Position numbers and translations under genes: made by a program
Notes under the pieces: model-generated
The model's input: only the letters and a program-made list of their open reading frames with translations
What the model was told of the DNA's origin: nothing
The model's database searches: none
NCBI RefSeq assembly: GCF_014204795.1
Contig: NZ_JACHMB010000001.1
Location: forward strand, 558,001-622,000
DNA: 64,000 bases
Direction of reading: 5' to 3'
DNA from: Nonomuraea jabiensis
GTDB taxonomy: Bacteria; Actinomycetota; Actinomycetes; Streptosporangiales; Streptosporangiaceae
Shown here: positions 1 through 19,494 of the stretch, in pieces
Numbering within the stretch: position 1 is the stretch's first letter
Layout: every line of letters starts with the position of its first letter

Positions 1-930
1 CCGCTGCTCCAGTTCCTCGCACAGCCTCCCGGCGGAGTACGCCCGCAGGTAGAGGTCGTTGTCGGCGGGAAGCAAGCCTCGTTCCTCGGCGAAGAGCAGG
101 AAGACCACTCGCATCATGACGGTGACCGCGCCCCGGTAGACGTCGTGCGGCGTGACGTCCCTCCCCAGACCCGGGCCGCCCCGATCGCGATCGGCGGCGT
201 CGGCCCGGCCGATGGCGGCGACGAGAAGTTCGACCGCCTGGCGGACCTGGGAACCGAGCCGCTCGGTGATGACTTCCTGGTTGTCCTTGCTGGCCGCGAG
301 CAGCGCAGGAAGCGTCTCGTCGTCGGTGACGCCGAGGAAACGCTCGCGGCTCAGCAGCGAGACGAAGGCGCGGACCACGACCAGCTCGGCCGCCTCGTTC
401 CAGGCCATGGCGTCGAAGACCGCGGTAGTGGTCACGCTCTGCCGGGGCGCCCAGACCAGCGCCCAGCGCCGTCCGTCCGTCGCCAGGCCGAGCGGCACGT
501 CGTGTACCCGGCACAGATGCGCCACGCGGTCGGCGGGGGTGGCCGCCCATTCCGAGCCGGGGATCCGCTTGACCGGGTCGCCCTCGCAGACCAGCCCGAG
601 CAGCCGTCCGTTCATGGTGAAGTCCGGCACGAGGGTGGTGTCGTGCTCGGGCACGGCCACCTCGTACTTGCCGAGGTCCTCGGTCCGCAGCGCGTCGCCC
701 CAGCTGAGCAGGTCGCGCAGAACGTAGTCGATCCAGGCGGCCCGGTCGCCGGAGCTCTGCCAGGCGCTGTGTCGAGAACGCAGCCGTTCGCGGTCCTGCT
801 TGGTGAGCGCGTCCAGCGAGGGCCAGGTCTTCCGCAGCACCGGCAGGCTCAGGAAGGGACCGGAGACGTCGACCAGGCCAAGCCAGTCGAGGTGCTCCCG
901 GTTGGGGTCTCGGGGCTTGCTGAACTTCAT
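1..930 (-). CDS. Large DNA methyltransferase-like protein (3' end outside window), DISARM DrmMI-like
   Basis: The reading frame starts at ATG 930-928 (MKFSKPRDPNREHLDWLGL) and stays open to the left edge, giving about 310 visible residues. The start overlaps the stop of the upstream helicase gene as ATGA, so the two are translationally coupled. The visible part resembles the N-terminal region of large Eco57I/PglX-type restriction-modification proteins: a stretch with DFTMNGRLLGLVCEGDP, then LGLATDGRRWALVWAPR, then a helical part with VVFLLFAEERGLLPA. The methyltransferase motifs (a GxG motif and NPPY) would lie further 3' and are not in the window, so the methylase call is inferred from this N-terminal style and from the SNF2 partner. 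A restriction-type protein of similar layout is the main alternative. Confidence 0.6.
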   Translation of the reverse strand, partial: MKFSKPRDPNREHLDWLGLVDVSGPFLSLPVLRKTWPSLDALTKQDRERLRSRHSAWQSSGDRAAWIDYVLRDLLSWGDALRTEDLGKYEVAVPEHDTTLVPDFTMNGRLLGLVCEGDPVKRIPGSEWAATPADRVAHLCRVHDVPLGLATDGRRWALVWAPRQSVTTTAVFDAMAWNEAAELVVVRAFVSLLSRERFLGVTDDETLPALLAASKDNQEVITERLGSQVRQAVELLVAAIGRADAADRDRGGPGLGRDVTPHDVYRGAVTVMMRVVFLLFAEERGLLPADNDLYLRAYSAGRLCEELEQR

Positions 931-3900: not shown

Positions 3901-4076
3901 CCGGGCTCGACCTCCCAGACGACGGTGAGCGTGTCGCCGTAGCGCCCGTCCTCGACGCTCTGCAGCGTCACCAGAGTGCTGCCCGGTCCGGGTTCCACCT
4001 CGCCGACCACCCAACGCTGGCCTCGAACCGACACAAGCCGGCCTATCTCCGGCCGCTCTACGGCAGTGCTCGTCAC
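927..4076 (-). CDS. drmD: RapA/SNF2-type DEAH helicase, DISARM DrmD-like
   Basis: Superfamily 2 ATPase of about 1049 residues, predicted to translocate on DNA. Motif I is DDVGLGKTIEAGL near residue 137, the Walker B box is LLILDEAHHV near 250, and motif III is FLSATPHNG near 289. The second RecA lobe carries VVFTEYKDTLDWL, LLATDAAGEGIDLQ near 577 and QRIGRIDRYGQ near 607. A long C-terminal region follows. The frame is open to a GTG at 4199, but GTG 4076 is preferred because a GAGGAG sits 6 bases upstream and a palindromic operator-like site lies in the longer version. In class 1 DISARM phage-defence loci, drmD is followed by the adenine methylase drmMI, which matches the coupled downstream gene. 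The remaining drm genes, if present, would be left of the window. A RapA-like helicase of another defence system is the alternative. Confidence 0.72.
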   Translation of the reverse strand: MTSTAVERPEIGRLVSVRGQRWVVGEVEPGPGSTLVTLQSVEDGRYGDTLTVVWEVEPGGKVLPSGALPEVTAAGFDSPGRLAAFLDAIRWSAVTSADVKTLQAPFRSGVAIEDYQLEPVARAVDAPRVNLLLADDVGLGKTIEAGLVAEELLLRHRGRRIMIVCPAGLTIKWQEEMAEKFGLDFTIIDTDRCAKVRRSYGSAANPFEIYPLSIVSLPWLRGQKAQRLLAELLPADGPSYPRTFDLLILDEAHHVAPAAPKQAYAVDSQQTKLIRWLAPHFTHRLFLSATPHNGYEASFTALLETLDDQRFARGVKPKRSALDETVVRRLKSQIRENGREKFPKRVAKEIPVLYPEDEREAHELLKEFAKLRRARLRQRRGRRAADLVTLLLKKRLFSSPDAFARTIDVYLESVQSRVETLADSDDMPEWMEDYDEDVAGLGDEELAEAEDDAVTRAYPLQGGATPEEVELLRRMRTWAGQYATLPDAKAAELITYLKAVCMPDGCNWSSERVVVFTEYKDTLDWLQLLLAQEGLSGDAVQTMHGQKPAGEREQIRRAFQKAPEEHPVRILLATDAAGEGIDLQNYCHRLVNYDIPFNPNKLEQRIGRIDRYGQSKTPEIRHFVGVVKGGATDTYEADLEFLSRVARKVAQQTQDLGPVNAVISERLQRRLLGENVSIDHVEEDAPPDEVPIEHDLPEQVRKLRANLDRTIDELRITPANVKRVVDTALQLTRQQPLRPHADERHLAEGFWEVPILTGSWERGSVGLLEKLSDEDLAKGVVPRRRPITFDSATTRDPDGRVRDDVVLAHLNHPLVAMSTGLLRAAVSNPEIDLNRVTAVVSDHPALEGVFIGAYSRFVVAGGDGILLHEEILYSGGWLRERHPWFARAASLTQTREILDHALAEGVPAPAHLRSRLAEAWPRAREGLLDAVYSRSADREKSLAGVLARRQESEQNTITSNLSEFEATLRGKLAEDEDDALISLSEITKDARELAQYRRDRQSWQDRLAQLAVERDRELEVIAARYADPRPHTFPVALIFVVPEREAATR

Positions 4077-4182
4077 CGTCAGCTCCTCGTCCCAGGGGGC
4101 TATCAGTTTGGCAGAACAGGGGTTGGTACGTGTGCGGAATCTTACGACCGACATTCGCTTACTGTCCAGATCACGAAATAAG

Positions 4183-4201
4183 TTGTGCGCTGAGTTCACA
4201 A
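4183..4201. promoter_or_regulatory. Imperfect 19-bp palindrome in divergent promoter region (candidate operator)
   Basis: TTGTG (4183-4187) and CACAA (4197-4201) form perfect inverted arms 9 bases apart, and four of the inner positions also match symmetrically. The site lies in the 169-bp gap between the divergent helicase (start 4076) and the secreted-protein gene (start 4246). A TATGAT at 4202-4207 could be a -10 box for the plus-strand gene. Binding by a shared regulator is inference. Confidence 0.4.
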
Positions 4202-4861: not shown

Positions 4862-6130
4862 ATGCACATCACCGCTCATCTCGACCTGACCGTCGTCCCC
4901 TTCGACCAGGACGACGAGGTCACCCTCATGCTGGAGATCGCCGCTCCCCCGCCCGCCATCGGCGATCGGCCGCCCGCGACCGTACAGGTCGTCCTCGATC
5001 GCAGCGGTTCGATGGGCGGCGCCCGGCTGGCCGGCGCCCAGCGTGCGCTGCTCGGCCTGGTGGACCGTCTCGACCCTGCCGACAACTTCGGCCTGGTCAG
5101 CTTCAGTAATTCCGCACGGGTCGAGTTGCCGGCCGGACCCTTGGCCCACAAGGCTGCGGCCAAGCGGACGATCGAGGCCCTCCGTCCGATGGGCTCCACC
5201 GATCTGTCCAGTGGTCTGCTTCGCGGGATTCAGGAAGCTCGTCGCGTTGCCGACGAGCGCAGCGCCACGCTGCTGCTCATCTCCGACGGTCACGCCAACG
5301 AGGGCATCGTCAATCACGAACTTCTGGCGGACATCGCACGTGATGCTCATCAGCACGGCGTCACCACTACCGCGCTCGGCTACGGCCTGGATTACGACGA
5401 ACGGCTCATAGCAGCTATAGCGGACGGCGGCGCCGGAAGCTCCCTGCACGCCACAGAGGCCGACACCGCTGTTCAGCTCATCGCGTCAGAGGTCGGCGTC
5501 CTGCTGTCCAAGGTCGTCCAGGCAGCCTCTCTCACGATCACGCCGCGCACCGCCGTCTCCGGTCTCCGGCTGTACGGCGATCTGCCCTGCACACAGCGCG
5601 CCGACGGTGCGGTGGTCACGGAGCTGGGCGACTTCTACGGCGGAGAGACACGCAAGCTTCTCATCCGGATGCCCGTGGCCGGGATGGCCGTTCTCGGCCT
5701 GGCCACCGTCGCCGAACTCGAGTTCACGTACGTGGAGAGCCGGACGCTGACCACGTACACCGTCACGGTGCCCGTGTCGGTCAACGTGGTTCCCGGAGAC
5801 CAAGCCGCCGGGCGCATTCCCAACCCCGTCGTCCGCGCTGAACAACTCTTCCACGATGCGCAGGAGGCGAAGCGCCGCGCGTCAGACGCCCTGCTCCGTG
5901 GTGACGTGAACGCGGCCGAGGCGATCCTCAACGCCGCCGGCGACGCCCTGGAGCGGAGCCTGGCCTGGGCACCGAATGCCGACGAGTTCTTGGCCGAGAT
6001 GGAGAAGCTGCGCAGGCACGCACTCGAGGCACGGCATGACGCGGCTCGCATCTCCAAGCAAGTTCGCTCCGAATGGCACATGCGCACCCGCAAGCGGGGC
6101 CGCTCCTACGACGACAGGGAAGGCGGCTGA
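4862..6130 (+). CDS. von Willebrand factor A (vWA) domain protein
   Basis: A 422-residue protein with an intact metal-ion adhesion site. DRSGSMGG (near residue 46) is the DxSxS motif, MGSTDLSSGL supplies the Thr, and LISDGHAN supplies the Asp. The vWA fold covers roughly residues 38-215. A beta-rich segment follows (about 220-310), then a charged helical tail rich in Arg and Lys (about 325-422). There is no signal peptide or membrane segment, so it should be cytoplasmic. It starts 13 bases after the secreted-protein gene. vWA proteins often act as scaffolds for AAA+ ATPases or in conflict systems such as the TerY group. Here the neighbours are helicase and Hsp70-like genes, so a scaffolding role in that assembly is likely but inferred. 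Confidence 0.85.
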   Translation: MHITAHLDLTVVPFDQDDEVTLMLEIAAPPPAIGDRPPATVQVVLDRSGSMGGARLAGAQRALLGLVDRLDPADNFGLVSFSNSARVELPAGPLAHKAAAKRTIEALRPMGSTDLSSGLLRGIQEARRVADERSATLLLISDGHANEGIVNHELLADIARDAHQHGVTTTALGYGLDYDERLIAAIADGGAGSSLHATEADTAVQLIASEVGVLLSKVVQAASLTITPRTAVSGLRLYGDLPCTQRADGAVVTELGDFYGGETRKLLIRMPVAGMAVLGLATVAELEFTYVESRTLTTYTVTVPVSVNVVPGDQAAGRIPNPVVRAEQLFHDAQEAKRRASDALLRGDVNAAEAILNAAGDALERSLAWAPNADEFLAEMEKLRRHALEARHDAARISKQVRSEWHMRTRKRGRSYDDREGG

Positions 6131-6374: not shown

Positions 6375-9300
6375 ATGTCCCCCCAAAGCCACATGTCAGA
6401 AATATCGGCTACGGAGTCGGCCGAGCTTCTCGACCGACGCGAATCCGAATGGCGCTCCCTGCTCCCGACCGTCTCCCTGCTCACAGAGGTCGAGGTCGAC
6501 CAGGACTCCCTCGATTCCACCGGCAAGGCGCTCGGGGCCCTGTATCAGCTGAAGGTGACGAAAGGGAAGTATCTCTCCCTCTTCGACCGATGGCCGGCCT
6601 GCGTCGCCGTGACCCTCACGGGGGTGGCGGTTCATCACTATCGGCAAGGCACTTTCTGGCCTTATCTGAGGACGACGCTGAGTTACCGTTCGTTCACCAT
6701 TCCGCAGGACTCGAATGCATGGGGAGCCGCATATCTCGACGCGTTGAAAAGGTTCCGCCTCCCCCTGTTTCCCGAGCGGGAGCAGAAGTATGTGGGACCG
6801 ATTCTCATGCATGCGGGCATACCGACCTTCTGCCTGGACGACTTCTTCGCGCTGCTCCTCCGTCGGCACGCGCAGGATCCCGCGATCGACGCCGACGCAC
6901 TGCTCGCGTGGGCGACCGCGCGCGAGACGCGCCTGTACTCCCTGGACGTGCCCGCGCGCAGGTTCATCAGAAACGGCACCGACTTCGCCGTGGACGTGAT
7001 CGACCGTTGCCTTGATCTGCTGGACCGCATGAGGTCACCCGAACCCGACCTCGGCGGTCTCGGGCTGCCCGTACGCTTCATCGAGCGAGCCCAGGAGCTG
7101 ATCGAGCAGGGCCGGCTGGACCTCGGACGGGGCACGGCGACGCCCGCCCGGCTCACGCAGGTCGAGCGCCCCCGGCTGGCGCTGGACCCGTTTGGGCAGG
7201 GCGTTCAGATCGTGCTGCCTCCCGTTGGGGAGGCTCCTGACGGCACCGCGCGCTGGAACGTGACAGTCGACGGCGTACCGAATCTCGTCAAGAGCCGGCC
7301 CTTGTGGGTCGGCGCGGCGGAGGGAGCGCCGACCACGACCTTCCCCCTGACCAGGCCTGCCCGTGTCGCGCAGATCTCCCTCCAGGGGACGGAGCACGAG
7401 ACGGAGATCGGCATCGTCGATTCCGGCGACCCATTGCTGATCTTCACTGAGAGCGGCCGTCAGCTCCAGTCTCACCTCGGCGTCCCTCCGGACGCCGTCT
7501 GGGTCCTCCACCCCCGTGACAGGGAGGTGGTCGCCGACGTCCCGCCCCGCGTCATCGTCGAGAGCCCTCTGCCCGTGGGCTGGGACGGGTGGCGGCTCGT
7601 CCAGGTGCTGCTGGAGGGCGCGACGTGGGTCGCGCTTAGCGGCGAAGGCGTCAGACACAGGCCGATCCGTGGGCACAGCAAGCCGCGAGTGATCACCGGC
7701 GATCCGATTCCCGGTGTCACCACGCCGTACGGCTCACCGGTCTACTGCAAGCCTCCCGCCATATGGCTGCCCGCGGAGACGCCGACAACCTGGCTCATCG
7801 ACGTCCGGTCGGCCACGGGCGAGGAGAAATTCCTCACCCGCCGGTTCACGGTCGGAGAGCCCACGGAGATTTCCGAGGAGCTGTGGGCGGGCCTGCCGCG
7901 GCCGCTCCTTGGAGCGTTCGAAGTCACGGTGCGCGGCCCGATCGGCCGCAACGCCCGCAGGACCGTCTCCATCGCCGAGGGGTTGGCTCTGCGCTGCACC
8001 CCGCCGGTGCGGCTGTTCAACGGAGACGGGCTGGTCCCGGGAGAGGCGTCGCTGTCCTGCGGACCTGGTATGACCGTCGACCGCCCCTCCCTCTCTTACT
8101 CCCCTGTGGAGCGGGAACGGGTCGTCACTTGTACGACCTCAGGTGGGACAGAACCGCTCATCGTCGCCCCGCCCTCCATGCGGGTCCTCGTGGAGGAGGC
8201 GAGCAGCAGCCCCCGGTGGAACGCCGGCCCTGTGCGGCTGCACACGGAGGGCTTCGGCGACGCCGACGCGCTCCTGATCGAGGTGCCGGGCATCGACGCG
8301 TTCCCGCCGCTCCAAGTGCAAGCGGGGCGGCGGGTCATCCAGGAGATCGCGCCGTCCGGACGGGGCCGCTACAACTTGCGCCGCGCCCAGGACACCGTGC
8401 AGGAGCACCGGAGCGTCGATCTGGTCCTCCCGCTCGCCGGCGTCCCCGTGCTGGTCGGCAGCGTGCGGCCTGCCCGGCTCGCCACCGGCGTCACCGCGGC
8501 CGGCAAGTCGCTGCTTCTCGACGAGTGCGTGTGGGTGGAGAACCTGACCGCGGGCCTCTACCTGTGCACTGCCCCCTGGCGAGAGCCGGAGATCATCCCT
8601 GTGGAGAAGGACGGCTCTATCCCGCTCCCCGACGACCTGGTGAACGCCGGGCGCATGCACGTACGGCTGACAGTCGAAGATCCCTGGGTCTCGTCCGAGT
8701 GGCCGCGATGGCCCCACCCGCGGGAGATGCTGGTCTGCGAGGCTCCCGGGCACTATGAGGGAGGCGATGCGGAGGACCGGCAGTTGTCCGGCTACCTGGC
8801 GGGGACGGACGCGTTCCCGGCGAAGGTGAGCCGCCTGGACCGGCTGTGGACGATCGTCGACCTGGCCAACCGCATCGACCATTCCACCGCGGACCGCTGG
8901 ATCGAGGATTCCGCGGCCTTGCTGCGAAACCATCCCGAGGCGATCCGTTCCGTCCCGGATGCCGGCCTGCCCCCTGATCGCGCGGTGGTCGCCCTGATCA
9001 CGACCGGGCTGGCAGCCTCGAAGATGGATCACTGCGTGGCGTCCGACATCGCGCTGTGGCGCAAGGCTCCCGTGGCGGCCGCCCTGCTGACAGGGTCCCT
9101 GCTCGCCGACGCCGCAGAGGACTCCGACCTGCTGGCCGAGGTGCGTGCGGAGTGCGGCGAGTCAGCGCTCGCGATCCTCAGGGGAGAGGACGACCCCTAT
9201 GCCCCAGCCGGCCTCTTCGACATGGGCGCGGAGCTGATGGCCCGTCAGGATCCGGAGATGCTCGAGAGCCTCTGGAGCGCCGCGCAGGTCGTCCCCTCGG

Positions 9301-9686
9301 CCCTGCTTGATGAGGACACCCGCGTGACGGCCGCGCGCCTGCTGTTCGACCAGCGCAACTGTCGCGACGGCCGCAAGCTCGCCGATCAGGCCGAGCGGGT
9401 CGTGCGCGAAGGGCTGGTGCTGCGCGACAACGGGTTCTGGGCTGTGGGCAAGTATGTGGCCGCCCGCTGCCATCCGAAGCGGCTGCACGGGTGGGTGTCG
9501 CTGCCCGCGATGTCGATCGCGCTCGCGCTCATCGCCCGCATGGCCGCGCATGGGCACGCGGACTGCCGGATCCTGGAGGAACGCTTCCGCTTCCTCTGGC
9601 GGATGCTGGCCAAGATCGCGCCGGTGCTGACGACCATCGACCTGGTCCGCGCGGAACTCATCGTGGCTGCCCGGCCCGCCCGCTGA
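6375..9686 (+). CDS. Large protein of unknown family, first gene of the helicase/Hsp70 operon
   Basis: This is a 1103-residue cytoplasmic protein that I do not recognise. Three parts can be seen. The N-terminal helical region (about 1-245) contains WPACVAVTLTGVAVHHY and the striking block YVGPILMHAGIPTFCLDDFF, probably family hallmarks. A long beta-rich middle (about 250-790) has repeated Ig-like strands such as WNVTVDG, GAFEVTVRGP and RMHVRLTVEDPW. The C-terminal region (about 795-1103) is helical. No nucleotide-binding or nuclease motif is evident. A second ATG lies 18 bases in and could be the real start. The helicase gene follows after 34 bases. By position it is probably a structural or recognition subunit working with the helicase, but that is inference. 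Confidence 0.8.
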   Translation: MSPQSHMSEISATESAELLDRRESEWRSLLPTVSLLTEVEVDQDSLDSTGKALGALYQLKVTKGKYLSLFDRWPACVAVTLTGVAVHHYRQGTFWPYLRTTLSYRSFTIPQDSNAWGAAYLDALKRFRLPLFPEREQKYVGPILMHAGIPTFCLDDFFALLLRRHAQDPAIDADALLAWATARETRLYSLDVPARRFIRNGTDFAVDVIDRCLDLLDRMRSPEPDLGGLGLPVRFIERAQELIEQGRLDLGRGTATPARLTQVERPRLALDPFGQGVQIVLPPVGEAPDGTARWNVTVDGVPNLVKSRPLWVGAAEGAPTTTFPLTRPARVAQISLQGTEHETEIGIVDSGDPLLIFTESGRQLQSHLGVPPDAVWVLHPRDREVVADVPPRVIVESPLPVGWDGWRLVQVLLEGATWVALSGEGVRHRPIRGHSKPRVITGDPIPGVTTPYGSPVYCKPPAIWLPAETPTTWLIDVRSATGEEKFLTRRFTVGEPTEISEELWAGLPRPLLGAFEVTVRGPIGRNARRTVSIAEGLALRCTPPVRLFNGDGLVPGEASLSCGPGMTVDRPSLSYSPVERERVVTCTTSGGTEPLIVAPPSMRVLVEEASSSPRWNAGPVRLHTEGFGDADALLIEVPGIDAFPPLQVQAGRRVIQEIAPSGRGRYNLRRAQDTVQEHRSVDLVLPLAGVPVLVGSVRPARLATGVTAAGKSLLLDECVWVENLTAGLYLCTAPWREPEIIPVEKDGSIPLPDDLVNAGRMHVRLTVEDPWVSSEWPRWPHPREMLVCEAPGHYEGGDAEDRQLSGYLAGTDAFPAKVSRLDRLWTIVDLANRIDHSTADRWIEDSAALLRNHPEAIRSVPDAGLPPDRAVVALITTGLAASKMDHCVASDIALWRKAPVAAALLTGSLLADAAEDSDLLAEVRAECGESALAILRGEDDPYAPAGLFDMGAELMARQDPEMLESLWSAAQVVPSALLDEDTRVTAARLLFDQRNCRDGRKLADQAERVVREGLVLRDNGFWAVGKYVAARCHPKRLHGWVSLPAMSIALALIARMAAHGHADCRILEERFRFLWRMLAKIAPVLTTIDLVRAELIVAARPAR

Positions 9687-9720
9687 AACTTCCTGATCTC
9701 CCCGTACATCGGAGCTGACC

Positions 9721-12700
9721 GTGGATCCGCTGAAGACAAGCGCCCTCATCACGAACACGTACCGGCGTTACCTGCGCTCGATCCTCCCCGTACGCGATAC
9801 GAAGATCGCGCAGGCGCTGGCGGCCGAGATCACGAGCAGTCCGATGCTGACGAAGGGACCACTGCTGGAGGCGACCCCGCCGTACCAGCCGGGGACCACG
9901 CTCCGGCAGCTCATCGACGAGAACGTGCTCTCGCCCGCGTTCGAGAAGCTCGGCGCGCCGGCCCTACCGCTGGACCGGCCTCTCTATCTCCACCAGGAAC
10001 AGGCGATCCGCAAGGCCACGAACGGCAGGAACCTGGTGGTGGCCACGGGCACCGGTTCCGGCAAGACGGAATCCTTCCTTCTGCCCATCCTGAACGCGCT
10101 GGTCACCGAACGAGAGAAGGGGGAGCTCACCCCCGGGGTCCGGGCGCTTCTCCTCTACCCGATGAACGCCCTCGCCAACGACCAGCTCAAGCGTTTGCGC
10201 CTGCTGCTGGCCCAGACGCCGTTCATCACCTTCGGCCGGTACACCGGTGACACGAAGGAGCGCAGACACGAAGGACTCGCACAATTCGAGGAGCTCAACC
10301 ATGGCCACAGGCGACTGCCCAACGAGCTGCTGAGCCGGGAGGAAATGCGTGCCACACCGCCACACCTCCTCCTCACCAACTACGCGATGCTGGAGTACCT
10401 GCTCCTCCGGCCGGCAGACATGGAGCTGTTCGAAGGTGAGCACGGCGGGCGCTGGAGATTCATTGCCCTGGACGAAGCCCATGTCTACGACGGCGCCAAA
10501 GCCGAGGAACTCGGCATGCTGCTGCGCCGCTTGCACGACCGGGTGGCACCGCGGCAGCGGCTGCAGTGCATCGCCACCAGCGCCACGGTCGGTGACGAGC
10601 CGCAGGCAGTAATGGACTTCGCGACCAAGCTGTTCAACGTGCCCTTCGAATGGGCTGACGACGACGCGAGTCGCAGGGATCTCGTCAGCGCCACCCGCGT
10701 CAGCATGCCGTCGGGGCCGTTCTGGGGACCGCTGTCGGCGCAGGACTACAAGGAGCTCGCTCGGAGCAACGATCCAGCGGACGACCTTTTCTGGCGGGCG
10801 GGCGAGCAGTACGCCAACGTCGCCGAAGGTCTCGCGCACGAGCACGCGATGGCGCGGTTCCGTGGCACTCTGGCCGCCGGGCCCCGGTCCTTCGACGACC
10901 TGGCCCAGCTCATCTTCGGCGGTCAGGATGACCCAGCCGGTGGGCTCGCCGCCCTGGTCGAGGTGGGCAGCCGGATCCACGGCGCGACCGGTGCCCCCGT
11001 CCTATCAGCGCGTTACCACCTGTTCGCCCGGGCAACCGAGGGCGCCTACACGTGTCTCACCTCCAGCGGACCACACGTATCCCTGAACCGGCATGAGTCT
11101 TGCCCGCAGTGCGCCGGCGCCATGTTCGAGATGGCCGGGTGCAAGCGCTGCGGTGCGGTCCACCTGATCGGCGCGATAGCGCTCTCATCTGGCGGCCAGT
11201 TCTTCACCCCGCGTGTTGGTAACGACGGCGTTCGTACGTGGCTGCTGCTCGATGACGCTCCGGAAGTGACCGACGAGGACGAGGCCACTCTGGAGGAGGC
11301 CGCCACCACCGAGAGCCAGGTGGCTCACCTCTGCCCCCGTTGCGGCGCGCTGCACGCCCAGCCACAGCTCTCCTGCGGCAAGAACGGCTGTGCGGAGACT
11401 GCCCTGCGACCGGTGCGCAAGCTCAAGACCAAGGCCGCCTCTCCCAGCGGCTGTCTCGTCTGCGGCGGGCGGGGCTCTGAGATGATCAGGCAGTTCGAGA
11501 GCGGCAACGACGCCGCCACGGCCGTCCTGGCTACCGCGCTTTACCAGCAGATCCCACCGGCGCCGGACGTCGAGATCGCCGACCATCCGGGTGAGGGCCG
11601 CAAGCTACTCACCTTCAACGACAACCGACAGGCGGCGGCCTTCTTTGCCCCCTATCTTGAGGCCAGTTACGGCGAGGTGCAGCATCGGCGCCTCATCCTC
11701 CAGGGCCTGTACCGGGCGACCGAGGAACACCAGGCCGTCAGCCTCAAAACCCTGATCTTCCACGTGAGCCAGGCAGCGGAGCAGGCTGGCGTCTTCCCTG
11801 CCAAGGACGACGCACCGAGTCGCCAGCGCGAAGTTTCCCTCTGGGTGATGCGTGAGCTGCTCGCTCTCGACGAACGCAAGTCCCTGGAAGGCCTCGGTCT
11901 CATCCGTGTCGGGCTCGACCGTGACCCCGGGTGGAGGCTGCCGCAGCCGCTCCTTTCGCTTGGCCTGTCCGAGGCTGAGTGCTGGGACCTGCTGGAAGAG
12001 CTCATCCGTTCGGTACGCAACCAGGGCGTGCTCACCATGCCGACGGACGTGGACGCCAGGGACGAGGCGTTCAAGCCGCGGACGGGGCCGATCTACGTAC
12101 GCAAGGACGGGGCGGAGGCCAAGCTCAAGGTGCTGAGCTGGCTGCCCACCCGGGGACGCAACCGACGGCTCGACTATTTGACGCGCCTGCTCGCGGTCCT
12201 GGGCTGCAACGCCGATCCGAAGGGCGTGCTCGAGGGCTGCTGGAAGTTCCTGACGAGCCAGAAGAACGGCTGGCTGCCCAGCGACAATCCCCGTCGGGTC
12301 GGGGTGATCCATCAGGTGGACCACAGCCGGATCCGCGTCTCCCCGGCCGATGTGGTCTACCGGTGTGAGCTCTGCCGCCGTTTCACCGGCGTCAGCGTAC
12401 GTGGCGTATGCCCGATGATGGGCTGCGAAGGTCGCCTGATCGAGGCCAAGGCCGATCCTGACGAGCACTACACGGTCCTCTACCAGTCGATGACGCCCAT
12501 CCCGCTCACCGCGCGGGAGCATACCGCCCAGTGGACGGGCGAGGAGGCAGCCAATATCCAGCAGCGCTTCCTGCGCGGCGAAGTGAATGTGCTGTCGTGC
12601 TCGACGACGTTCGAACTGGGCGTGGACGTCGGCGAACTGCAGACGGTGATGCTGCGCAACATGCCGCCCACGACGGCCAACTACATCCAGCGTGCCGGGC

Positions 12701-14331
12701 GCGCGGGCCGGCGTGCCGACTCCGCGGCACTGGTGCTGACCTATGCCCAGCGGCGTTCTCATGATTTGTCGCGCTATCAACAGCCTGAGTCCATGATCGC
12801 AGGTCAGGTCCGCGCGCCGTACGTGCCGCTCGGCAACGAGCGCATCGATCGTCGACACGCCCACTCCGTGGCTCTGGGAGCGTTCTTCCGGTACGCGAAG
12901 TCCACGAGCGGCGCGGTCTGGCGGACTGCCGGCGAGTTCTTCCGCCCCAATGGCGGTTCGGACGCGGCCTGCGAGCGCGTGCTCGACTTCCTCAGCCCCG
13001 TACCCGCCGGGATCACCGAGACGCTGCGCCAGGTCCTGCCCGCCGAGGTGCACTCCGAGATCGGGGTGGAGTCCGGAAGCTGGGTGATCGATCTTTGCGA
13101 ACACCTGGAAAAGGTGCGACAGGAGCTGGACCAGGACATCGCCATCTTCGAACAGAAAATCCAGGAGGCGGTCGCGTCCAAGCGGTACGGCCTGGCAGAT
13201 CGCTATCAGCGCACCATCAACACCCTCACGACTCGCAATCTCATCGGGTTTCTGGCGAACCGGAACGTGCTTCCGAAGTACGGCTTCCCCGTCGACACGG
13301 TCGAACTGCGCACGCTTCACTGCGACAACCCCGTGGGCTCGAAGCTGGAGCTCGCTCGTGACCTGTCCAGCGCCATCTACGAGTACGCCCCAGGCTCGGA
13401 GGTCGTGGCGGGCGGAGTGCTGTGGCGTTCGGCCGGCGTCTACCGCCTGCCGGGGCGCGAACTCATCAGCAAGCGCTACTACGTGTGCCGGAACTGCCAG
13501 CATTTCCGCCACGTCGAAGACGACCCGGATCCGATCTGCCCGGCATGCAAGACGCCCTCCGACTCGCCGGTACGGCAGTACTGCATTCCCGAATTCGGCT
13601 TCGTTGCCGAACCGAGGACGAGCAAGCCGTCCACCTCGCCGCCGAGGACGTCCTGGAACGGCGCCACCCTCGTCGTCAAGCTCGCCGACGACCCTGCTCT
13701 CTTCCGCTGGCGCACCGCGAACGGCATGGTCGTCCAGTGCCGTTCGGGAGCGAGGGGGGAAATGATCGCCCTGTCCGAAGGGCCGATCGGATCGGGCTAC
13801 GTGATCTGCGAGTGGTGCGGCTGGGCGAGCGCGCACCTGGGCCGCCTGCCGAAGAGCCACACCAGCCCGCTGCGGCAAGGCGAGTGCACCGGCCCCCTAC
13901 AGTGGCGCACACTCGCGCACACGTACGAGACAGACATCCTGGAGATCCGCTTCGAGGGGCTGAGCCGGCCGCGAGAGGGCTGGCTGTCCACCCTGTACGC
14001 CCTGCTCGAGGGCGCGGCCCACGGCCTGGAAATCAGCCGGGACGACATCGACGGCACGATCCACGCGGGAGCGGACGGCCACACGAGCCTGGTCATTTAC
14101 GACAACGTGCCGGGCGGCGCTGGATCGGTGCTGCGGATCGCCCAACGGCTGGACACCGTGGCGGAGACCGCGCTGCAACGGATGTCAACCTGTGAGTGCG
14201 GTGAGGAGACATCTTGTTATGGCTGTCTTCGCAACCGGCGCAACGAGCGCAACCATGAGCTTCTGTCCCGTGGAGCCGCACTTGACGTGCTGCGCATCCT
14301 GAGCGGGGACGGACTCCTCCGGGCGGAGTAG
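9721..14331 (+). CDS. DEAH helicase with DUF1998 C-terminus and multiple zinc knuckles
   Basis: A 1536-residue superfamily 2 helicase of the YprA/DUF1998 type. Motif I is ATGTGSGKTES (near residue 108), Ia is LLLYPMNALANDQL, the Walker B box is FIALDEAHVYDGAKAEE (near 250) and motif III is IATSATVGDE (near 286). The second RecA lobe has STTFELGVDVGEL (near 960) and QRAGRAGRR (near 990). DUF1998 features close the protein: VIYDNVPGGAGSV and a cysteine cluster CECGEETSCYGC (near 1450-1500). Between the lobes are several Cys pairs, for example CPQC with CKRC and CPRC, and later CRNC with CPAC and CEWC. The GTG start has GGAG 6 bases upstream. Helicases of this class drive Druantia, DISARM and Dpd-like defence systems. 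The partners here are different. Confidence 0.9.
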   Translation: MDPLKTSALITNTYRRYLRSILPVRDTKIAQALAAEITSSPMLTKGPLLEATPPYQPGTTLRQLIDENVLSPAFEKLGAPALPLDRPLYLHQEQAIRKATNGRNLVVATGTGSGKTESFLLPILNALVTEREKGELTPGVRALLLYPMNALANDQLKRLRLLLAQTPFITFGRYTGDTKERRHEGLAQFEELNHGHRRLPNELLSREEMRATPPHLLLTNYAMLEYLLLRPADMELFEGEHGGRWRFIALDEAHVYDGAKAEELGMLLRRLHDRVAPRQRLQCIATSATVGDEPQAVMDFATKLFNVPFEWADDDASRRDLVSATRVSMPSGPFWGPLSAQDYKELARSNDPADDLFWRAGEQYANVAEGLAHEHAMARFRGTLAAGPRSFDDLAQLIFGGQDDPAGGLAALVEVGSRIHGATGAPVLSARYHLFARATEGAYTCLTSSGPHVSLNRHESCPQCAGAMFEMAGCKRCGAVHLIGAIALSSGGQFFTPRVGNDGVRTWLLLDDAPEVTDEDEATLEEAATTESQVAHLCPRCGALHAQPQLSCGKNGCAETALRPVRKLKTKAASPSGCLVCGGRGSEMIRQFESGNDAATAVLATALYQQIPPAPDVEIADHPGEGRKLLTFNDNRQAAAFFAPYLEASYGEVQHRRLILQGLYRATEEHQAVSLKTLIFHVSQAAEQAGVFPAKDDAPSRQREVSLWVMRELLALDERKSLEGLGLIRVGLDRDPGWRLPQPLLSLGLSEAECWDLLEELIRSVRNQGVLTMPTDVDARDEAFKPRTGPIYVRKDGAEAKLKVLSWLPTRGRNRRLDYLTRLLAVLGCNADPKGVLEGCWKFLTSQKNGWLPSDNPRRVGVIHQVDHSRIRVSPADVVYRCELCRRFTGVSVRGVCPMMGCEGRLIEAKADPDEHYTVLYQSMTPIPLTAREHTAQWTGEEAANIQQRFLRGEVNVLSCSTTFELGVDVGELQTVMLRNMPPTTANYIQRAGRAGRRADSAALVLTYAQRRSHDLSRYQQPESMIAGQVRAPYVPLGNERIDRRHAHSVALGAFFRYAKSTSGAVWRTAGEFFRPNGGSDAACERVLDFLSPVPAGITETLRQVLPAEVHSEIGVESGSWVIDLCEHLEKVRQELDQDIAIFEQKIQEAVASKRYGLADRYQRTINTLTTRNLIGFLANRNVLPKYGFPVDTVELRTLHCDNPVGSKLELARDLSSAIYEYAPGSEVVAGGVLWRSAGVYRLPGRELISKRYYVCRNCQHFRHVEDDPDPICPACKTPSDSPVRQYCIPEFGFVAEPRTSKPSTSPPRTSWNGATLVVKLADDPALFRWRTANGMVVQCRSGARGEMIALSEGPIGSGYVICEWCGWASAHLGRLPKSHTSPLRQGECTGPLQWRTLAHTYETDILEIRFEGLSRPREGWLSTLYALLEGAAHGLEISRDDIDGTIHAGADGHTSLVIYDNVPGGAGSVLRIAQRLDTVAETALQRMSTCECGEETSCYGCLRNRRNERNHELLSRGAALDVLRILSGDGLLRAE

Positions 14332-14372
14332 ATCGATAACATGCACTGGACGAACTCTTCACATTGGCGCAG

Positions 14373-16028
14373 ATGAACAGCTCAATACCTGATGGCGTCA
14401 CACGCGCGGAGGCGGTGGCCGCGTGGCGCCAGAACCGCGCGCGACGCAAGGCGGCCAGGTCTCCCGACGGGAGGATCGCCGATCAGTCCGCTATGGCCTG
14501 GGCAGACCTGGGATTGCACGGCCGGGACACTATCGAGAACCTCAAGCGGGGACTTCGTGACCTGCTCGAGCGTTCCCCGGGCGCCCCGGAGCAGGATCGC
14601 TTGACCGTCGAAGAGGCGATCCTGTCCGCGCCGGGACCCGATCTTCCCCATGCGGTGCGAGGTCTCCTGAGCGCCATGACGCCCCTCCGGCTCGTCGAGG
14701 CTCTGAACAACCTCGTGCAGGCGGGGATGCCGTGGCTCAGCATTCAAGGTGAACGGCACGCCCAGCTGCTGGCCATGGACCTGCCGGGCATGGGCGCCAT
14801 GAAGCGGCTGTCCGATGAGTTCCTCGACGGCGGGCCCGGATGGCGTTGCTATCTCGCCGCGTTAGGACACCCCGCCCGAGTCGCAGCCGATGAGATCGGG
14901 CAGGTCGTCCCGCGAGTCCCTCTGACTGTCGTCGACGACCTCATTGATCTTGGGCTGATCGGTGCGGAAGATCAACCGTGGCGGCTGATGGGCGACCCCG
15001 GCGAGGGTGTCTACGTACGAGCCCGGCTGGCGCCGGAAACCATCACGCGCGCAGACGCGGGGCAGCTCCAGTGGAGCGAGATGGAACGCCGGCACGCCTT
15101 TCTGGACGGGGCGGACCTCGACGGCGACGACGTATACGGCATGCTTGCCGGGCTGTGGCGAGGAGAGGTCGACGTACGGCTTCGCGGTCAGTTGCCTGTG
15201 GAACAGCAGACGCTGCTCGATCAGATGCAGCACGGTGCCCAAGTAGGACGATGGCCACAGGAGCTGATCAACGACCACGCCCTGTGGGGCGCCCTCGCCG
15301 CTCTGTGGACGCCGAGCGAGGCAATTGAGGCCAAGCTGAGCGAGTTCCATACCTGGCGTGGGCTGTACGTCTGCTACCTGCACATCCTCGTGGGCAATTT
15401 CAAGAAGGCCAGCGCCCAGATCGAGAAGCTCCTGGAAGCCGCCGCCACGAAGGATCAGCACGGCGGATGGCTGCTCGACCAATGCTCCTTCGCCGAGGTC
15501 CACAACATGGGCGCGTACCTGGCCCAGCGAAACAACGAGCTCGAGCTGGCCATCAAGCTGCTCTCCGACAAGGACGTGGTGAGCGACGAGACCGCTGCCC
15601 AGAACCTGGCCCTCATTCGAAAGCGGCGCGAGACGCTCGTCAACGATCGCGAAGACTGGCAGAATCCCTACCTCGCGCTCGGACTCGCACACGGCGATCC
15701 CGACTGGAAGGAGCAATACCGTGCCTTGCTTCGGATCGTCCGGGGAAACACCGAACGGGAAGCCGCCATCAACCGGGCCGAGCGTCGGCTGAGGCGGGCC
15801 ACCAGCGAGACCCAGTTCTTCGTGGTACCGCTGAGCGAGGACATCTTCCTCCCCCCGTCCGACGGCCGCTCCTCCGCTCTTCTACCGCCCGTGGAACCGC
15901 TCCTTCGGCGCACGCCGGCGAGCATGAGTGCGGACTTCCTGACGCTGCGCGAGCGGGCCGCAGAAGAGCTACTCGCCGAATTCCACGTATCTCCTTCAAC
16001 AGAAAAGATCACCGATGCCGAGCAGTGA
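14373..16028 (+). CDS. Helical protein with a degenerate J-domain-like segment
   Basis: A 551-residue protein; the frame opens at TTG 14364 but ATG 14373 is preferred. The first 330 residues are mainly helical with no family I recognise. Residues about 325-415 look like paired helices in TPR style (LHILVGNFKKASAQIEKLL and NELELAIKLLSDKD). At about 430-475 is NPYLALGL...DWKEQYRALLRIVRGN...AAINRAERRL. This has the spacing of a DnaJ J-domain, with a Y..LG opening, a YR.L helix and an N.A...L end. The HPD tripeptide that activates Hsp70 is absent at its usual place. The gene overlaps the next by 14 bases, in an operon ending with an Hsp70. I infer an Hsp70 co-factor of J-protein ancestry; confirming this needs a profile search. 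Confidence 0.7.
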   Translation: MNSSIPDGVTRAEAVAAWRQNRARRKAARSPDGRIADQSAMAWADLGLHGRDTIENLKRGLRDLLERSPGAPEQDRLTVEEAILSAPGPDLPHAVRGLLSAMTPLRLVEALNNLVQAGMPWLSIQGERHAQLLAMDLPGMGAMKRLSDEFLDGGPGWRCYLAALGHPARVAADEIGQVVPRVPLTVVDDLIDLGLIGAEDQPWRLMGDPGEGVYVRARLAPETITRADAGQLQWSEMERRHAFLDGADLDGDDVYGMLAGLWRGEVDVRLRGQLPVEQQTLLDQMQHGAQVGRWPQELINDHALWGALAALWTPSEAIEAKLSEFHTWRGLYVCYLHILVGNFKKASAQIEKLLEAAATKDQHGGWLLDQCSFAEVHNMGAYLAQRNNELELAIKLLSDKDVVSDETAAQNLALIRKRRETLVNDREDWQNPYLALGLAHGDPDWKEQYRALLRIVRGNTEREAAINRAERRLRRATSETQFFVVPLSEDIFLPPSDGRSSALLPPVEPLLRRTPASMSADFLTLRERAAEELLAEFHVSPSTEKITDAEQ

Positions 16029-16788
16029 GAAGGGGCCCCGGAGCAAGAGTCGCGGTGGCAACAGCCAGCCGCCCGGTTTCAAGAAGTCACACCCGGCGCC
16101 CGCTGGGCAACGTCCCGCGCCTCAGGTGACGGCCAGTGATCTGCAAGCCGCCCTCGACGCCCGGTTCAACCAGCTCTCGTCGGACTTGGAGAAGACCGTC
16201 AAGAAGCACGTCCGGCAGGCGCTGAAAGCCGAGATCCGCCAGGAGGTCGAGCTCGAGATTCGGGCGGAGATCGCTGCCAAGGTTCACCGGGAGATGGCGG
16301 TACGCCTCGCCGATCTGGTCCGCGAACACCAGCATCTGGACCCAGCCACGATCCTGCAGGACTTCGTTCGGCAGGCCACCGAGCTGCTTTCCAGCTCGAG
16401 CCAGCCTGCTGCGGACACTCTTACACAGCAGGAGCTCGTGGAGGCGCTGCGGCAGGCCGTGTTGGACGCCTTCCGCGCCCGCCGGCTCCACCTGGCCCAC
16501 TTGGCCGAACTCGACTCCCATCTGCGTGAGGCCACCGACTTGGAGGGCATCAGGCTGCTCGTCGATGAATGGATCGCGGTGACCGGGCTCAAGCGCGTCA
16601 CCGCTCCGACGGAGAACCCAGAGTGCTTCACCACGGTGAATCCGTCGGCCGACGGCCCCTACCTGGCTGTCGTACGACCCGCGTATGTCGATATGGCCAC
16701 CCGCAAGACCATACGAAGCGGTCAACTGCGCCACACTGACGACCCGGCTAGCGCGATCCACGACGACTCCCCCGTTGGAGGGCACTGA
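16015..16788 (+). CDS. Coiled-coil protein with GrpE-like layout
   Basis: A 257-residue protein with a Lys/Arg/Pro/Gly-rich disordered start (about 1-45), a long charged helix of coiled-coil type (about 45-115, containing KKHVRQALKAEIRQEVELEI), a helical middle part, and a short beta-rich end (about 200-245) with PYLAVVRPAYVDMATRKTI. Long helix followed by small beta domain is the plan of the nucleotide-exchange factor GrpE. The end strand also resembles GrpE's hydrophobic beta hairpin loosely. The gene starts 14 bases inside its upstream neighbour and stops 2 bases before the Hsp70 start, so the products should be made in fixed ratio. A GrpE-like role for the adjacent Hsp70 is inference. An unrelated coiled-coil adaptor is the alternative. 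Confidence 0.7.
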   Translation: MPSSEKGPRSKSRGGNSQPPGFKKSHPAPAGQRPAPQVTASDLQAALDARFNQLSSDLEKTVKKHVRQALKAEIRQEVELEIRAEIAAKVHREMAVRLADLVREHQHLDPATILQDFVRQATELLSSSSQPAADTLTQQELVEALRQAVLDAFRARRLHLAHLAELDSHLREATDLEGIRLLVDEWIAVTGLKRVTAPTENPECFTTVNPSADGPYLAVVRPAYVDMATRKTIRSGQLRHTDDPASAIHDDSPVGGH

Positions 16789-16790
16789 AG

Positions 16791-18773
16791 ATGGCAACGG
16801 GCATCGACTTCGGCACGACGAACTCCGTAGTCGCGCAGTGGAACGGAGACGAGGCCGAGGTTCTCCCCCTCGACGCGGACAACATCGACTCCGACTGGCT
16901 CTATGAGGAGTTCCAGGGCATCTTCCCCACCATCGTGGGTGAGAGCTCCACCCGGCTCGGCGCACTCTTCGGCTGGGAGGCGAAGCTCCGTTCCAACCGG
17001 GTCTTCGAGGCGTGCAAGCGCATGCTCCGCAACGACGAGAGCATCCGGCTCCGCGACGCCTCCGTCCCCGCGAGCGTGGCCGCGGCCGGGGTCTTCCGCG
17101 CCATGCGTGAACGCGCGGAAGGCAACCTTCTGCGACCCTTCGACAGCGCGGTGATCACGGTTCCCGCCAACGCACGCGGGGCCGCGCGCTACCGTACGCG
17201 GGCGGCGGCGCGGGCGGCGGGCATCCAAGTCAAGGCACTGCTGAACGAGCCCACCGCCGCGGCGCTCTCCTACATGCACGACATGCAGGAGGAGGGCCGC
17301 ATCATGGTCTTCGACTGGGGCGGCGGGACCATCGACGTGACGATCCTCGAACACATCGATGGACACTTTGAGGAACTCGCATCCAAGGGCATCACCCAAC
17401 TGGGTGGCATCGAGTTGGACAAGCGACTTCGCAAACTGCTCCTCCGTAAGCTTCCAAGCCATCCCGTCCTGTCGGAGCTGGAGAGCCGGGAGCTCGACCT
17501 CATCGTCGAACGAACCAAGATCCGTTTGTCGAAGGAGCCGACGGCGGTCGCCCGTATCCCTGGCAGCGGCAAGCTAGTACAGGTGGCCCGTGACGAGTTC
17601 GAGCGGGAGATCGCCGATCTCGTGGAACAGGCGCTCCAACCAGCCCGGCAATGTCTCAACGAAGTCGGCATGCACCCCGACGAGATCGACGGCGTCCTTA
17701 TGATCGGAGGAACCAGCCAGCTTCCCTGCGTACGGGACGCCGTTGAGAGACTCATAGACGACGAGGTCGTGCCGGACGTCATTTGTCATCCCATGACAGC
17801 CGTCGCTCGGGGAGCGGCGATCGCCGCGGCCATCCTCGACGAAAAGGTCAACAGCTATCTGCGAGTGTCGTCGATGTTCGCCCTGGGCACCAGCACCACT
17901 GACCAACGCAGTGGCAAAAAGGTCTTCAGCGCGATCATCGATCAGCACACACCGCTTCCCGCCATCGAGGAGAAGAGGTACACCCCGATCGATGATGGAC
18001 GGTCCCAGCTCACCGTTCCCGTGTGGGAGGCGGATCCTGCCAAGTCGCTAGACGACCCCGAGAACTTCCAGCTGACCAAGCTCGAACTCAAGTATCCAAG
18101 GCCCCTGCGCCGGGAAGAGGCCATCTTCAATCTCCGCTACACCTACACGGTGGACGGCCTGCTTCACGTCAAGGCAACCCTCGACAAGACCGGCGAGGTT
18201 CTTCTGGATCAGGAGATCCGGGATTTCACCAGCGGTGATACTCTACCGATCAGCGAAATTCAGCGTCGAATGAGTGCGTTGGACCGACTCACTCCATCAG
18301 GGACCTCCCTGCCCCGAACGACGTCCACCTCAGCAAAGTCCTTTGTTGTAGACGGTTCGAATCTCGCCTGGTACGGGCGAGATGCCAGAAAGGGCGATAT
18401 TCCCAGCCTCAGCCTGCTACTCAGCGGCATCCAGGCGCTCCACAATAAATTCCCCGAAGCGGGAGTAACCGTCTTCGTTGACGCAACCCTGCGACACAAG
18501 CTGTCCCCAGCGGAACAAGTGATGCTCGACGACGCCATTCGGCAAGAGATCATCTTGCCGACCCCTGCCGGAACGCATGGAAAAGCCGACAGATTGGTGA
18601 CGATGTTCGCCGATGAGACGGGCAGCATCATTGTAACCAACGACAGCTACAAGGAGCTTCAAGCCGAGTTCCCATTCCTCCTAGACGATGGACGTTTTCT
18701 CGGAGCTACGCCCGCCGGTGGCCATTGGCTATTCTCTCCGCGAACGCCGGTCCGACATCGACCTAACTCCTGA
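16791..18773 (+). CDS. Hsp70-family ATPase fused to a Zc3h12a-type NYN ribonuclease domain
   Basis: A 660-residue two-part protein. The Hsp70 nucleotide-binding domain covers about 1-355, with phosphate-1 loop GIDFGTTNSVVAQW, phosphate-2 loop FDWGGGTIDVTIL and adenosine motif LMIGGTSQLPCVRDAV. A shortened substrate-binding beta domain follows (about 360-490, with YTYTVDGLLHVKATLD), and there is no helical lid. Residues about 516-650 form a different domain. They show FVVDGSNLAW, TVFVDATLRHKL, GKADRLVTMFAD and GSIIVTNDSYKEL, which match the order and acidic residues of Zc3h12a/Regnase-like NYN ribonucleases. The predicted outcome is an RNA-cutting effector under chaperone-type ATP control, with the J-like and GrpE-like neighbours as regulators. 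Spacing of 2 bases ties it to the upstream gene. Base composition drops in GC over the NYN segment. Confidence 0.85.
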   Translation: MATGIDFGTTNSVVAQWNGDEAEVLPLDADNIDSDWLYEEFQGIFPTIVGESSTRLGALFGWEAKLRSNRVFEACKRMLRNDESIRLRDASVPASVAAAGVFRAMRERAEGNLLRPFDSAVITVPANARGAARYRTRAAARAAGIQVKALLNEPTAAALSYMHDMQEEGRIMVFDWGGGTIDVTILEHIDGHFEELASKGITQLGGIELDKRLRKLLLRKLPSHPVLSELESRELDLIVERTKIRLSKEPTAVARIPGSGKLVQVARDEFEREIADLVEQALQPARQCLNEVGMHPDEIDGVLMIGGTSQLPCVRDAVERLIDDEVVPDVICHPMTAVARGAAIAAAILDEKVNSYLRVSSMFALGTSTTDQRSGKKVFSAIIDQHTPLPAIEEKRYTPIDDGRSQLTVPVWEADPAKSLDDPENFQLTKLELKYPRPLRREEAIFNLRYTYTVDGLLHVKATLDKTGEVLLDQEIRDFTSGDTLPISEIQRRMSALDRLTPSGTSLPRTTSTSAKSFVVDGSNLAWYGRDARKGDIPSLSLLLSGIQALHNKFPEAGVTVFVDATLRHKLSPAEQVMLDDAIRQEIILPTPAGTHGKADRLVTMFADETGSIIVTNDSYKELQAEFPFLLDDGRFLGATPAGGHWLFSPRTPVRHRPNS

Positions 18774-18829: not shown

Positions 18830-19494
18830 TCAAGCCGACCTTAATGGCGGCTGGTCCAGCCCGCCGTTGAGCAGCACGTCCCGGACGAACTCGGCCGCGT
18901 TACGCGACGCGCTTTCGTGCCAGTCGTCGTTCTTGCCCATCCCCCAGTCGCAAACGGACTTCACAACGATCCAGTCCACCTTCTTCTTGGCAGCCGCGGC
19001 GTAGACGCCGACCGCCTCCATCTCGCCGCCGATCGCGTCCGGATGCGCATCGATGAGCTCTTGTCGTGCCGTCGGCGAGTTGAGCAGCACACTTCCAGAG
19101 AGCATCGGGCCGAAGTGGACCTTCGGGGTGCCCTTCGTCAACCTGGCGGTCTGGCAGCGGTCGAGCAGCGTCACCGACGGGGCGACCCGCTCACCCCTGC
19201 TGATTTCGACAGCCGTCCCCGGCGTGGGCTCGACGATCTTCTTGTGATCGATGCCTCGGAGCTGAGTGCACACCAGGATGTCACCGAGCTGTTGCTCACC
19301 TTCACGCAGGCCATAGCAGATCCCGGTGAGCAAGAGGTAGTCGGGGCGGAGCCGGTCGATCAGCGACTTCGCGGTAAGTTGGGCGCCTCCCGGATCCACG
19401 GCTGCCGTCCGCGTCTGCGCCAACAGGACACGGGCACGCCTTACCAGGCCGAGATCGAAGGTGGTGTGGTGCTCCAGGTGGCGACGCTGTGGCC
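18830..19494 (-). pseudogene. Nucleoside phosphorylase/MTA-SAH nucleosidase-like domain, 5' end frame-broken
   Basis: The frame reads a PNP/UDP-phosphorylase fold: RVLLAQTR, then LIDRLRPDYLLLTGICYGLR, HFGPMLSGSVLLNSPTAR, the catalytic-type IGGEMEAVGVYAAAA and VVKSVCDWGMG near the C-terminus. Such enzymes split nucleosides such as methylthioadenosine, and related ones serve as effectors in conflict systems. The homologous-looking part begins at about 19490, where the frame has no ATG or GTG and continues upstream into non-coding-like residues. The preceding coding frame (19495-19932) stops exactly there in another register. A single frameshift would join the two. Otherwise translation could start at GTG 19399, but that would remove the first strand of the fold. 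I call it a pseudogene or a sequencing frameshift. Confidence 0.6.

Follow-up and report, generated by a model that had tools for sequence, protein, structure and literature searches.

The question raised by this locus is whether five genes that follow one another on one strand in Nonomuraea jabiensis constitute a single defence system. The window, i.e. the whole stretch of 64,000 nucleotides (nt) that was analyzed, corresponds to C1:558001-622000 of a single-contig genome of 13.17 Mb. A preliminary description of this DNA had proposed one unnamed system composed of an unknown protein of 1103 residues, a DUF1998 helicase, a J-like protein, a GrpE-like protein and an Hsp70-NYN ribonuclease (RNase), here called genes A to E (Table 1). 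The tight packing and the lengths were confirmed: five open reading frames on one strand fill positions 6375-18773, with 34 nt between A and B, 32 nt between B and C, an overlap of 14 nt between C and D and 2 nt between D and E. The single five-gene system was rejected, because A-B pairs occur without C-D-E and C-D-E has many other partners. Thus, the five genes are two modules, an A-B pair and a C-D-E cassette. We propose, with a rough probability of 0.5, that DNA-targeting defence operons use C-D-E as an ATP-gated, RNA-cleaving arm; the operon is here a probable Druantia III-like A-B pair.

Gene E was analyzed by Pfam searches, which revealed HSP70 at residues 96-469 (E-value 2e-59) and RNase_Zc3h12a/NYN at residues 517-626 (1e-7), as the preliminary description had read it. 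The NYN domain matched ZC3H12B (5e-4) and ZC3H12A (3e-3) in the PDB, and structure matches to DnaK extended to residue 494 at most. The NYN domain occupies the place of the usual chaperone lid. In an alignment of 39 rows, which represent 35 distinct loci, the Hsp70 ATPase residues K76, E153, D175 and T180 were kept throughout, and the acidic NYN residues D521, D564 and D600 were present in 37 rows and D618 in 36. In phages, 26 records matched the Hsp70-NYN protein; among the five matches listed, only the Hsp70 part was covered.

Gene C showed no Pfam match at 0.1 and no PADLOC match. Its J-like character, claimed earlier, was borne out by profile comparison. Alignment of residues 424-505 with a profile of 29 J-domains (31 were fetched, two left out) using hhalign gave 87% and an E-value of 3.7e-6. 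Ten other windows of C were used as a control; with nine of them no E-value was better than 0.003, and the tenth (400-481) shares residues with the J-like part. The structure comparison lists for C contained TPR-type repeats and no J-domain, which is no evidence against a J-domain, and the C profile found no J match among PDB sequences (best E-value 1.5). C is thus predicted to be a TPR/J-like protein without the HPD motif. For gene D, Pfam yielded sub-threshold noise only. GrpE ranked first in two structure comparisons of D at weak scores (Foldseek E-value 0.09 or worse; profile 21%), so that the earlier assignment as GrpE-like is retained as a predicted fold. The D profile gave no GrpE match among PDB sequences, where the top row was a proteasome-activating ATPase (0.009). 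PADLOC models found nothing for C, a Type I specificity model for D (12 bits) and PDC-M61B for E (18 bits); for C, D and E of two further loci (L179 and L181) they found nothing, or 15 bits at most. Gene C had no match in plasmids, and none of 36 pattern matches in viral contigs was confirmed.

The contacts by which a J-protein triggers its Hsp70 have been described for DnaK and DnaJ as D35-R167 and H33-L391, and the HPD motif is called universally conserved in J-proteins in the cited part of the same work (PMC13012618). In the canonical DnaK-DnaJ-GrpE machine HPD, R167 and the hydrophobic linker are present; in the cassette they are lost. The corresponding positions were counted in 35 loci (without L178-L181). 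The L002 row of alignment A1, which was a misreading, enters no count. HPD was missing at the aligned place of C in all 35. On the side of E, the equivalent of R167 was A in 27, S in five and T in three loci; that of L391 was never Leu and that of D393 was gapped, both in 35 of 35. Both partners of the usual J-protein trigger have thus lost residues, with the ATPase intact. The earlier notion that an Hsp70 machine has been remodelled here and combined with an RNase in the setting of defence was upheld.

With a single C sequence as query, gene C was found in at least 14 of 341 genomes of the family, which is a lower bound. In all 13 other family loci C, D and E occurred together in the same order (D by tblastn, 13/13). 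Named species genomes were also scanned with the C profile, by a single peptide pattern; 25 loci were returned, each of them with C-D-E. All were from actinomycetes (Streptomyces, Streptosporangium, Microbispora, Actinomadura, Nocardiopsis and one Actinobacteria bacterium). A sample of 394 genomes of the class contributed ten matches: three known loci, four new C-D-E loci and three divergent ones. After removal of four duplicates (L081, L082, L083 and L091, contigs of L019, L020, L024 and L025), 39 distinct loci were obtained, namely the window plus 13, 21 and 4.

The three divergent loci L182-L184, with divergent D-E and the J-like gene separate or missing, stand outside the 39. They contain divergent GrpE-like and Hsp70 genes (L182, 9220-11776; L183, 8919-11469; L184, 2610-5058) with an Hsp70 tail ending in PYSYLF. 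In L182 and L183 a small separate J-like gene follows this pair, and a protein of 836-841 aa from an unknown family precedes it. Perhaps this arrangement is an older form of the machine.

The partners of the cassette were typed by PADLOC on one or two members per type and by BLAST to those for the others. A Druantia III-like pair accompanied the cassette in six of the 39 loci, Druantia IV (DruF-DruL-DruE) with an Hsp70 lacking NYN in four, and an ARMADA-like set plus two Leo-like dynamin-family GTPases in five (L093-L097). The Leo-like GTPases alone were found in three loci, one with a methyltransferase remnant, and a UvrD/GajB-like SF1 helicase in eight. DISARM was present twice (L024, with the cassette inside the operon; L089, with the operon nearby), as were GmrSD, with a Type ISP enzyme downstream, and AIPR; one locus had a weak ZacB-like partner and six had none that was recognised. 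The order in L093-L097 was YprA-like helicase, BrxHII/DpdE-like helicase, PglX/DrmMI-like methyltransferase, cassette and two Leo-like GTPases; all three ARMADA-like genes were present in 5/5, the first one cut by the end of the stretch. In ten loci the cassette lies inside another operon: between A and B (L019, L020, L023, L025), between DrmMI and DrmA (L024) or between the methyltransferase and the dynamin-like GTPases (L093-L097). In 27 of the 39 loci the neighbouring gene on the same strand, at most 400 nt away, was a partner, when the window, the SF1 helicase and the Leo-like genes are counted. We are highly confident that C-D-E is a genuine unit which is portable and associated with defence.

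In eight Streptomyces loci (L093-L097, L099, L101 and L102) the cassette is immediately followed by two genes for Leo-like dynamin-family GTPases, which are possible candidates for a membrane-acting arm. In L179 and L180 the gene call of C begins at the final nucleotide of that of DruE, and Druantia IV directly precedes C-D-E.

Genes A and B accompanied the cassette in five of the 13 other family loci, as A-C-D-E-B in L019, L020, L023 and L025 and divergently in L027. A was present in 7 of 14 cassette genomes vs 45 of 341 overall (p 7e-4); in one of the seven (G099) A-B lies ~20 kb from the cassette. A tree of C and E from 35 loci (L178-L181 left out), calculated with a quick method, had long branches for L029, L027, L026 and L088. 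On this tree the partner labels changed 14 times, compared with a minimum of 9 for ten labels and a shuffled mean of 24.3; the labels are therefore clustered overall, yet often swapped. The Druantia III label alone required five changes, all forced by starred branches, and its clustering was no better than chance (147 of 500 shuffles were equally low). Approximately unbiased (AU) tests, for groups named after inspection of the tree, rejected one clade for five of the six Druantia III cassettes (p-AU 1e-51) and the window plus L019 as sole group (p-AU 2e-4). The cassette closest to that of the window, in L018, stands beside a weakly Zac-like gene. Consequently, partners of C-D-E were swapped repeatedly.

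The A-B pair was analyzed in the same way. Gene A had no Pfam match at 0.1, in accordance with its earlier description as unknown, and none in PADLOC or NCBIfam. Gene B is indeed a DUF1998 helicase: Pfam identified DEAD, Helicase_C and MZB (the DUF1998-type zinc domain, at 1426-1503), with Walker A at 110 and DEAH at 251, and the top PADLOC match was DruE3 (1e-179). Only 33 residues remain beyond the MZB match, and the PLD nuclease end of E. coli DruE was not found in B by Pfam. Among 20 fetched A loci outside the cassette set, a DruE-like helicase lay directly downstream of A in every case, 14 times with a 4-nt overlap; in one of them (L080) the helicase gene was broken into pieces in the gene calls. 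Matches to C, D or E at 1e-3 were absent from all 20 fetched stretches. A-B is therefore a fixed two-gene pair.

A profile of A aligned collinearly over 493 columns with eight full-length DruH proteins (score 37.5, E-value 0.006, probability 6%). Ten column shuffles scored 24.4 or less, the reversed profile 17.7 and the E profile 17.2. The A profile (A4) against the single E. coli YjiT gave a probability of 0.1% and was of no help. The DruH model PDLC00039 had no match over 198 genomes of the phylum and its controls were silent too, so that this search was uninformative. The link from A to DruH is weak in sequence, and A is placed as a distant DruH because its length is equal and its pairing with DruE is fixed, more than by sequence. 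The most suitable reading of A-B is probably an actinomycete DruH-DruE pair of Druantia III-like type that lacks the helicase nuclease. Thus, of the earlier statement that no named system is involved, the part on C-D-E stands, as none was found, and the part on A-B falls, as B matches DruE of PADLOC; A-B and C-D-E do not consistently travel together, whereas C, D and E do. Gene A had no match in plasmids. Several A relatives of ~1570-1910 aa (P0098, P0099, P0105 and others) bear UvrD-type SF1 helicase domains; here A is fused to another helicase, which replaces or accompanies DruE.

The following sequence of events is proposed. In the resting cell the Hsp70 part of E would keep the NYN domain inactive. 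Docking of the chaperone, either to a phage client or to the partner complex, would be the task of the TPR/J-like C, which would do so without the standard HPD-R167 trigger. Binding of a phage protein, or of an infection-altered partner protein, to the Hsp70 substrate site would switch the nucleotide state, which would free the NYN domain to cut RNA, and the GrpE-like D would reset the cycle. Meanwhile, phage proteins would be sensed by DruH and phage replication intermediates would be the target of DruE, in line with roles reported or proposed for Druantia III systems elsewhere. DNA and RNA would then come under simultaneous attack, the cassette giving the Druantia-like pair a second strike, against RNA, that can be switched. 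A chaperone role in phage sensing has a precedent in bNACHT25, which requires DnaJ in the cited part of that study (PMC12169576). This gated-RNase mechanism is held tentatively, at somewhat less than even odds. The earlier model, in which the helicase senses DNA and the chaperone cycle releases the RNase, is likewise compatible with the data. Since four Druantia IV loci keep the triad with an Hsp70 without NYN, the machine also serves some purpose in the absence of the RNase, and RNase gating is not its only one.

Several observations weigh against the proposal. The Hsp70 of the Druantia IV loci (n=4; L029 and L179-L181) has 562-588 aa and lacks NYN, and no NYN match was found elsewhere in their fetched stretches. 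The Asp of HPD is retained in 28 of 35 triplets, so that the motif is partly kept. With its losses in the J-domain, C may have ceased to act on Hsp70. The predicted GrpE-like nature of D relies on a predicted fold at weak scores. On the side of the partners, six loci have none, the SF1 helicase matched as GajB-like with 37-40 bits in the two members, of eight, that were scanned, and the Zac assignment comprises 40 bits for ZacB and 18 for ZacA. The PADLOC DruH models matched none of 24 A-family proteins at 0.1, the global alignment mode of A against the DruH profile gave no match, and the unrelated C profile scored 30.3 against DruH over 87 columns (A, 37.5); the addition of this last control slightly lowered our confidence in the assignment of A-B. 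Finally, L061 contains an A protein 60% identical to that of the window in an A-B pair without the cassette.

One alternative is that the triad is a dedicated assembly chaperone, which folds or remodels very large helicase complexes and holds them inactive until infection, with NYN as a secondary addition that might, e.g., trim mRNA of the operon itself. Very large proteins are common among the partners (DruE-type proteins of ~1540-1850 aa, DrmA, DrmMI, PglX-like), the triad persists without NYN in the Druantia IV loci, and the ATPase residues are conserved in 39/39 rows. However, the 20 fetched A-B pairs all manage without the triad, the acidic NYN residues are kept in 36-37 of 39 rows, so that the RNase is under constraint, and the canonical J trigger residues are lost. 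We consider this alternative unlikely, though worth keeping in mind. Less probable still is a self-sufficient Hsp70-NYN abortive-infection system that merely shares defence islands with its neighbours. Against it stand the 27 loci with a partner next on the same strand within 400 nt and the ten in which the cassette lies between partner genes of another operon; it would accommodate the six loci without recognised partner, those with a divergent or distant one (L027, L028, L089 and L104) and the swapping of partners, and the co-occurrence with A would also be expected from island sharing. That C-D-E is a plain copy of the housekeeping dnaK-grpE-dnaJ machine which ended up among defence genes was rejected as highly improbable: all three machine parts are represented and the genome also holds the housekeeping set (around C1:3481928-3484620), but the order is J-GrpE-Hsp70, E is ~30% identical to DnaK of the same genome and fused to NYN, the HPD, R167 and linker residues are lost, and C and D are unseen by Pfam.

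Table 1. Features of the window; positions are those of the 64,000-nt stretch.
Feature	Position	Strand	Description
Gene A	6375..9686	+	1103 aa, DruH-like partner of the helicase (P0004), assignment probable
Gene B	9721..14331	+	1536 aa, DruE / YprA-family helicase without C-terminal nuclease domain
Gene C	14364..16028	+	554 aa, predicted TPR-like helical protein, C-terminal J-like domain without HPD (P0003)
J-like region of C	15633..15809	+	residues 424-482; RGN (460-462) at the place of HPD
Gene D	16015..16788	+	257 aa, predicted GrpE-like coiled-coil protein, beta-wing-like end (P0002)
Gene E	16791..18773	+	660 aa, Hsp70 (ATPase and substrate-binding beta domains) fused to NYN RNase domain (P0001)
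NYN (Regnase-type PIN-like) domain of E	18339..18668	+	residues 517-626; Pfam RNase_Zc3h12a
vWA protein	4862..6130	+	upstream of A; Pfam VWA; no conserved part
DrmD of divergent DISARM operon	927..4199	-	PADLOC DrmD, 1335 bits

The vWA gene noted upstream in the preliminary description is real and ends 244 nt before the operon of A; it was rejected as a part of the system, as tblastn at 1e-4 gave no match in 65 related loci. A 200-aa protein with a signal-peptide-like start is encoded directly before it (4246-4848, +) and had no match in the 65 loci either. The divergent DISARM-like genes were confirmed, with a full-length DrmD inside the window and homologues of DrmMI, DrmA and DrmB just beyond it; this operon, divergent to the array, lies within window positions 1-4199 and L164 (genome C1:538500-558400). 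The homologues outside the window are 59-67% identical to the cassette-bearing DISARM of L024. Beside E, a phosphorylase-superfamily protein (PNP_UDP_1; 18830-19852, -) is encoded. Its gene call, shortened at the N-terminus, gave matches to PADLOC PDC-M60C and to a 'PN-superfamily' effector; it is possibly another defence effector. PADLOC on 40 other window genes (18.8-64 kb) at 1e-10 gave mad3 twice, mad8 once and a PNP-type effector once; this background is no matched control, and the association statistic covers co-occurrence with A. Further downstream a phage-type integrase gene (23442-24806, -) and a tRNA-Arg (39051-39125, -) are located, and a mobile island may include the array or border on it.

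Hsp70 is among the best-studied molecular machines. Here, a whole family has lost residues of the trigger on both sides, kept its ATPase and, in most members, carries a Regnase-type RNase at the place of the lid. The cassette is found repeatedly with Druantia III-like, Druantia IV, ARMADA-like and DISARM systems, several of which could thus gain an attack on RNA by one mechanism. It is possible, at a little under an even chance, that a new class of immune accessory module is represented, a chaperone-gated RNase plugged into unrelated DNA-targeting systems, four YprA-helicase branches included. Equally tentative is the formulation that the Hsp70 nucleotide cycle, freed from the J-protein trigger, acts as an infection switch that adds RNA destruction. 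Whether an immune switch can be made of a chaperone cycle can be tested directly on C-D-E, for which related A-B pairs with vs without the cassette are a clean comparison.

With Druantia III the A-B pair shares the two-gene unit of a ~1100-aa protein without Pfam domain and a DEAD/Helicase_C/DUF1998-MZB helicase; it differs in that the DruH models are silent on A and C-D-E is attached. The M. smegmatis pair MSMEG_1253/1254 (1132 and 1667 aa) is described in the cited part of PMC13316683 as a phage-protective Druantia III pair whose DruH and DruE interact; the likeness to A-B is one of described sizes, not of protein comparison. For E. coli Druantia III, DruH is presented as a likely sensor and DruE as acting on ssDNA-containing intermediates (PMC13192584, in part). 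E. coli DruE (2114 aa, strain M37H) has a PLD nuclease end and gene B has none; this nuclease is not required in the Druantia III-like branch, most of which lacks the helicase nuclease domain according to the cited section of PMC12458937. Druantia IV (DruE, DruF, DruL) directly precedes C-D-E in L029 and L179-L181, and its definition, as given in the cited part of PMC8565338, names no Hsp70, GrpE or J protein. The cassette lies inside or beside operons of ARMADA type I and DISARM (L093-L097; L024), the ARMADA type I set and order matching the cited part of PMC12458937; Hsp70, chaperone, NYN, DnaK and GrpE do not occur in the main text of that paper. In CoCoNuT type III an Hsp70-like CnuD or CnuCD is likewise encoded in a defence operon, joint RNA and DNA attack is proposed, and Druantia III occurs in the same superoperons. 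According to the cited part of the same paper (PMC11090510), CnuD is a degenerate, poorly hydrolysing ATPase and the RNase is HEPN, whereas E keeps the ATPase residues and carries NYN. A McrB-type GTPase with coiled coil or a McrC homologue was absent among the Pfam and PADLOC matches listed for A-E (for B, the best 25 of 55 PADLOC rows).

No description of an Hsp70-NYN cassette was found in the open full-text literature, supplements being outside this search. In GAP1-N2 GTPase-centred systems, mainly of actinobacteria and firmicutes, Hsp70, GrpE and J or TPR parts are likewise co-encoded in a conflict operon (Kaur et al. 2020, PMC7159879). A GAP1-type GTPase and an FNIII protein belong to these operons; Pfam revealed no GTPase or FNIII match in window genes A-E or vWA, and the Leo-like GTPases of L093 are dynamin-like. 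The word NYN has a count of 0 in that paper, and the cassette differs in the Hsp70-RNase fusion and in its helicase or restriction partners. The HSP70-GrpE-DnaJ theme of the GAP1-N2 systems, as set out there, is thus the closest printed idea that was found.

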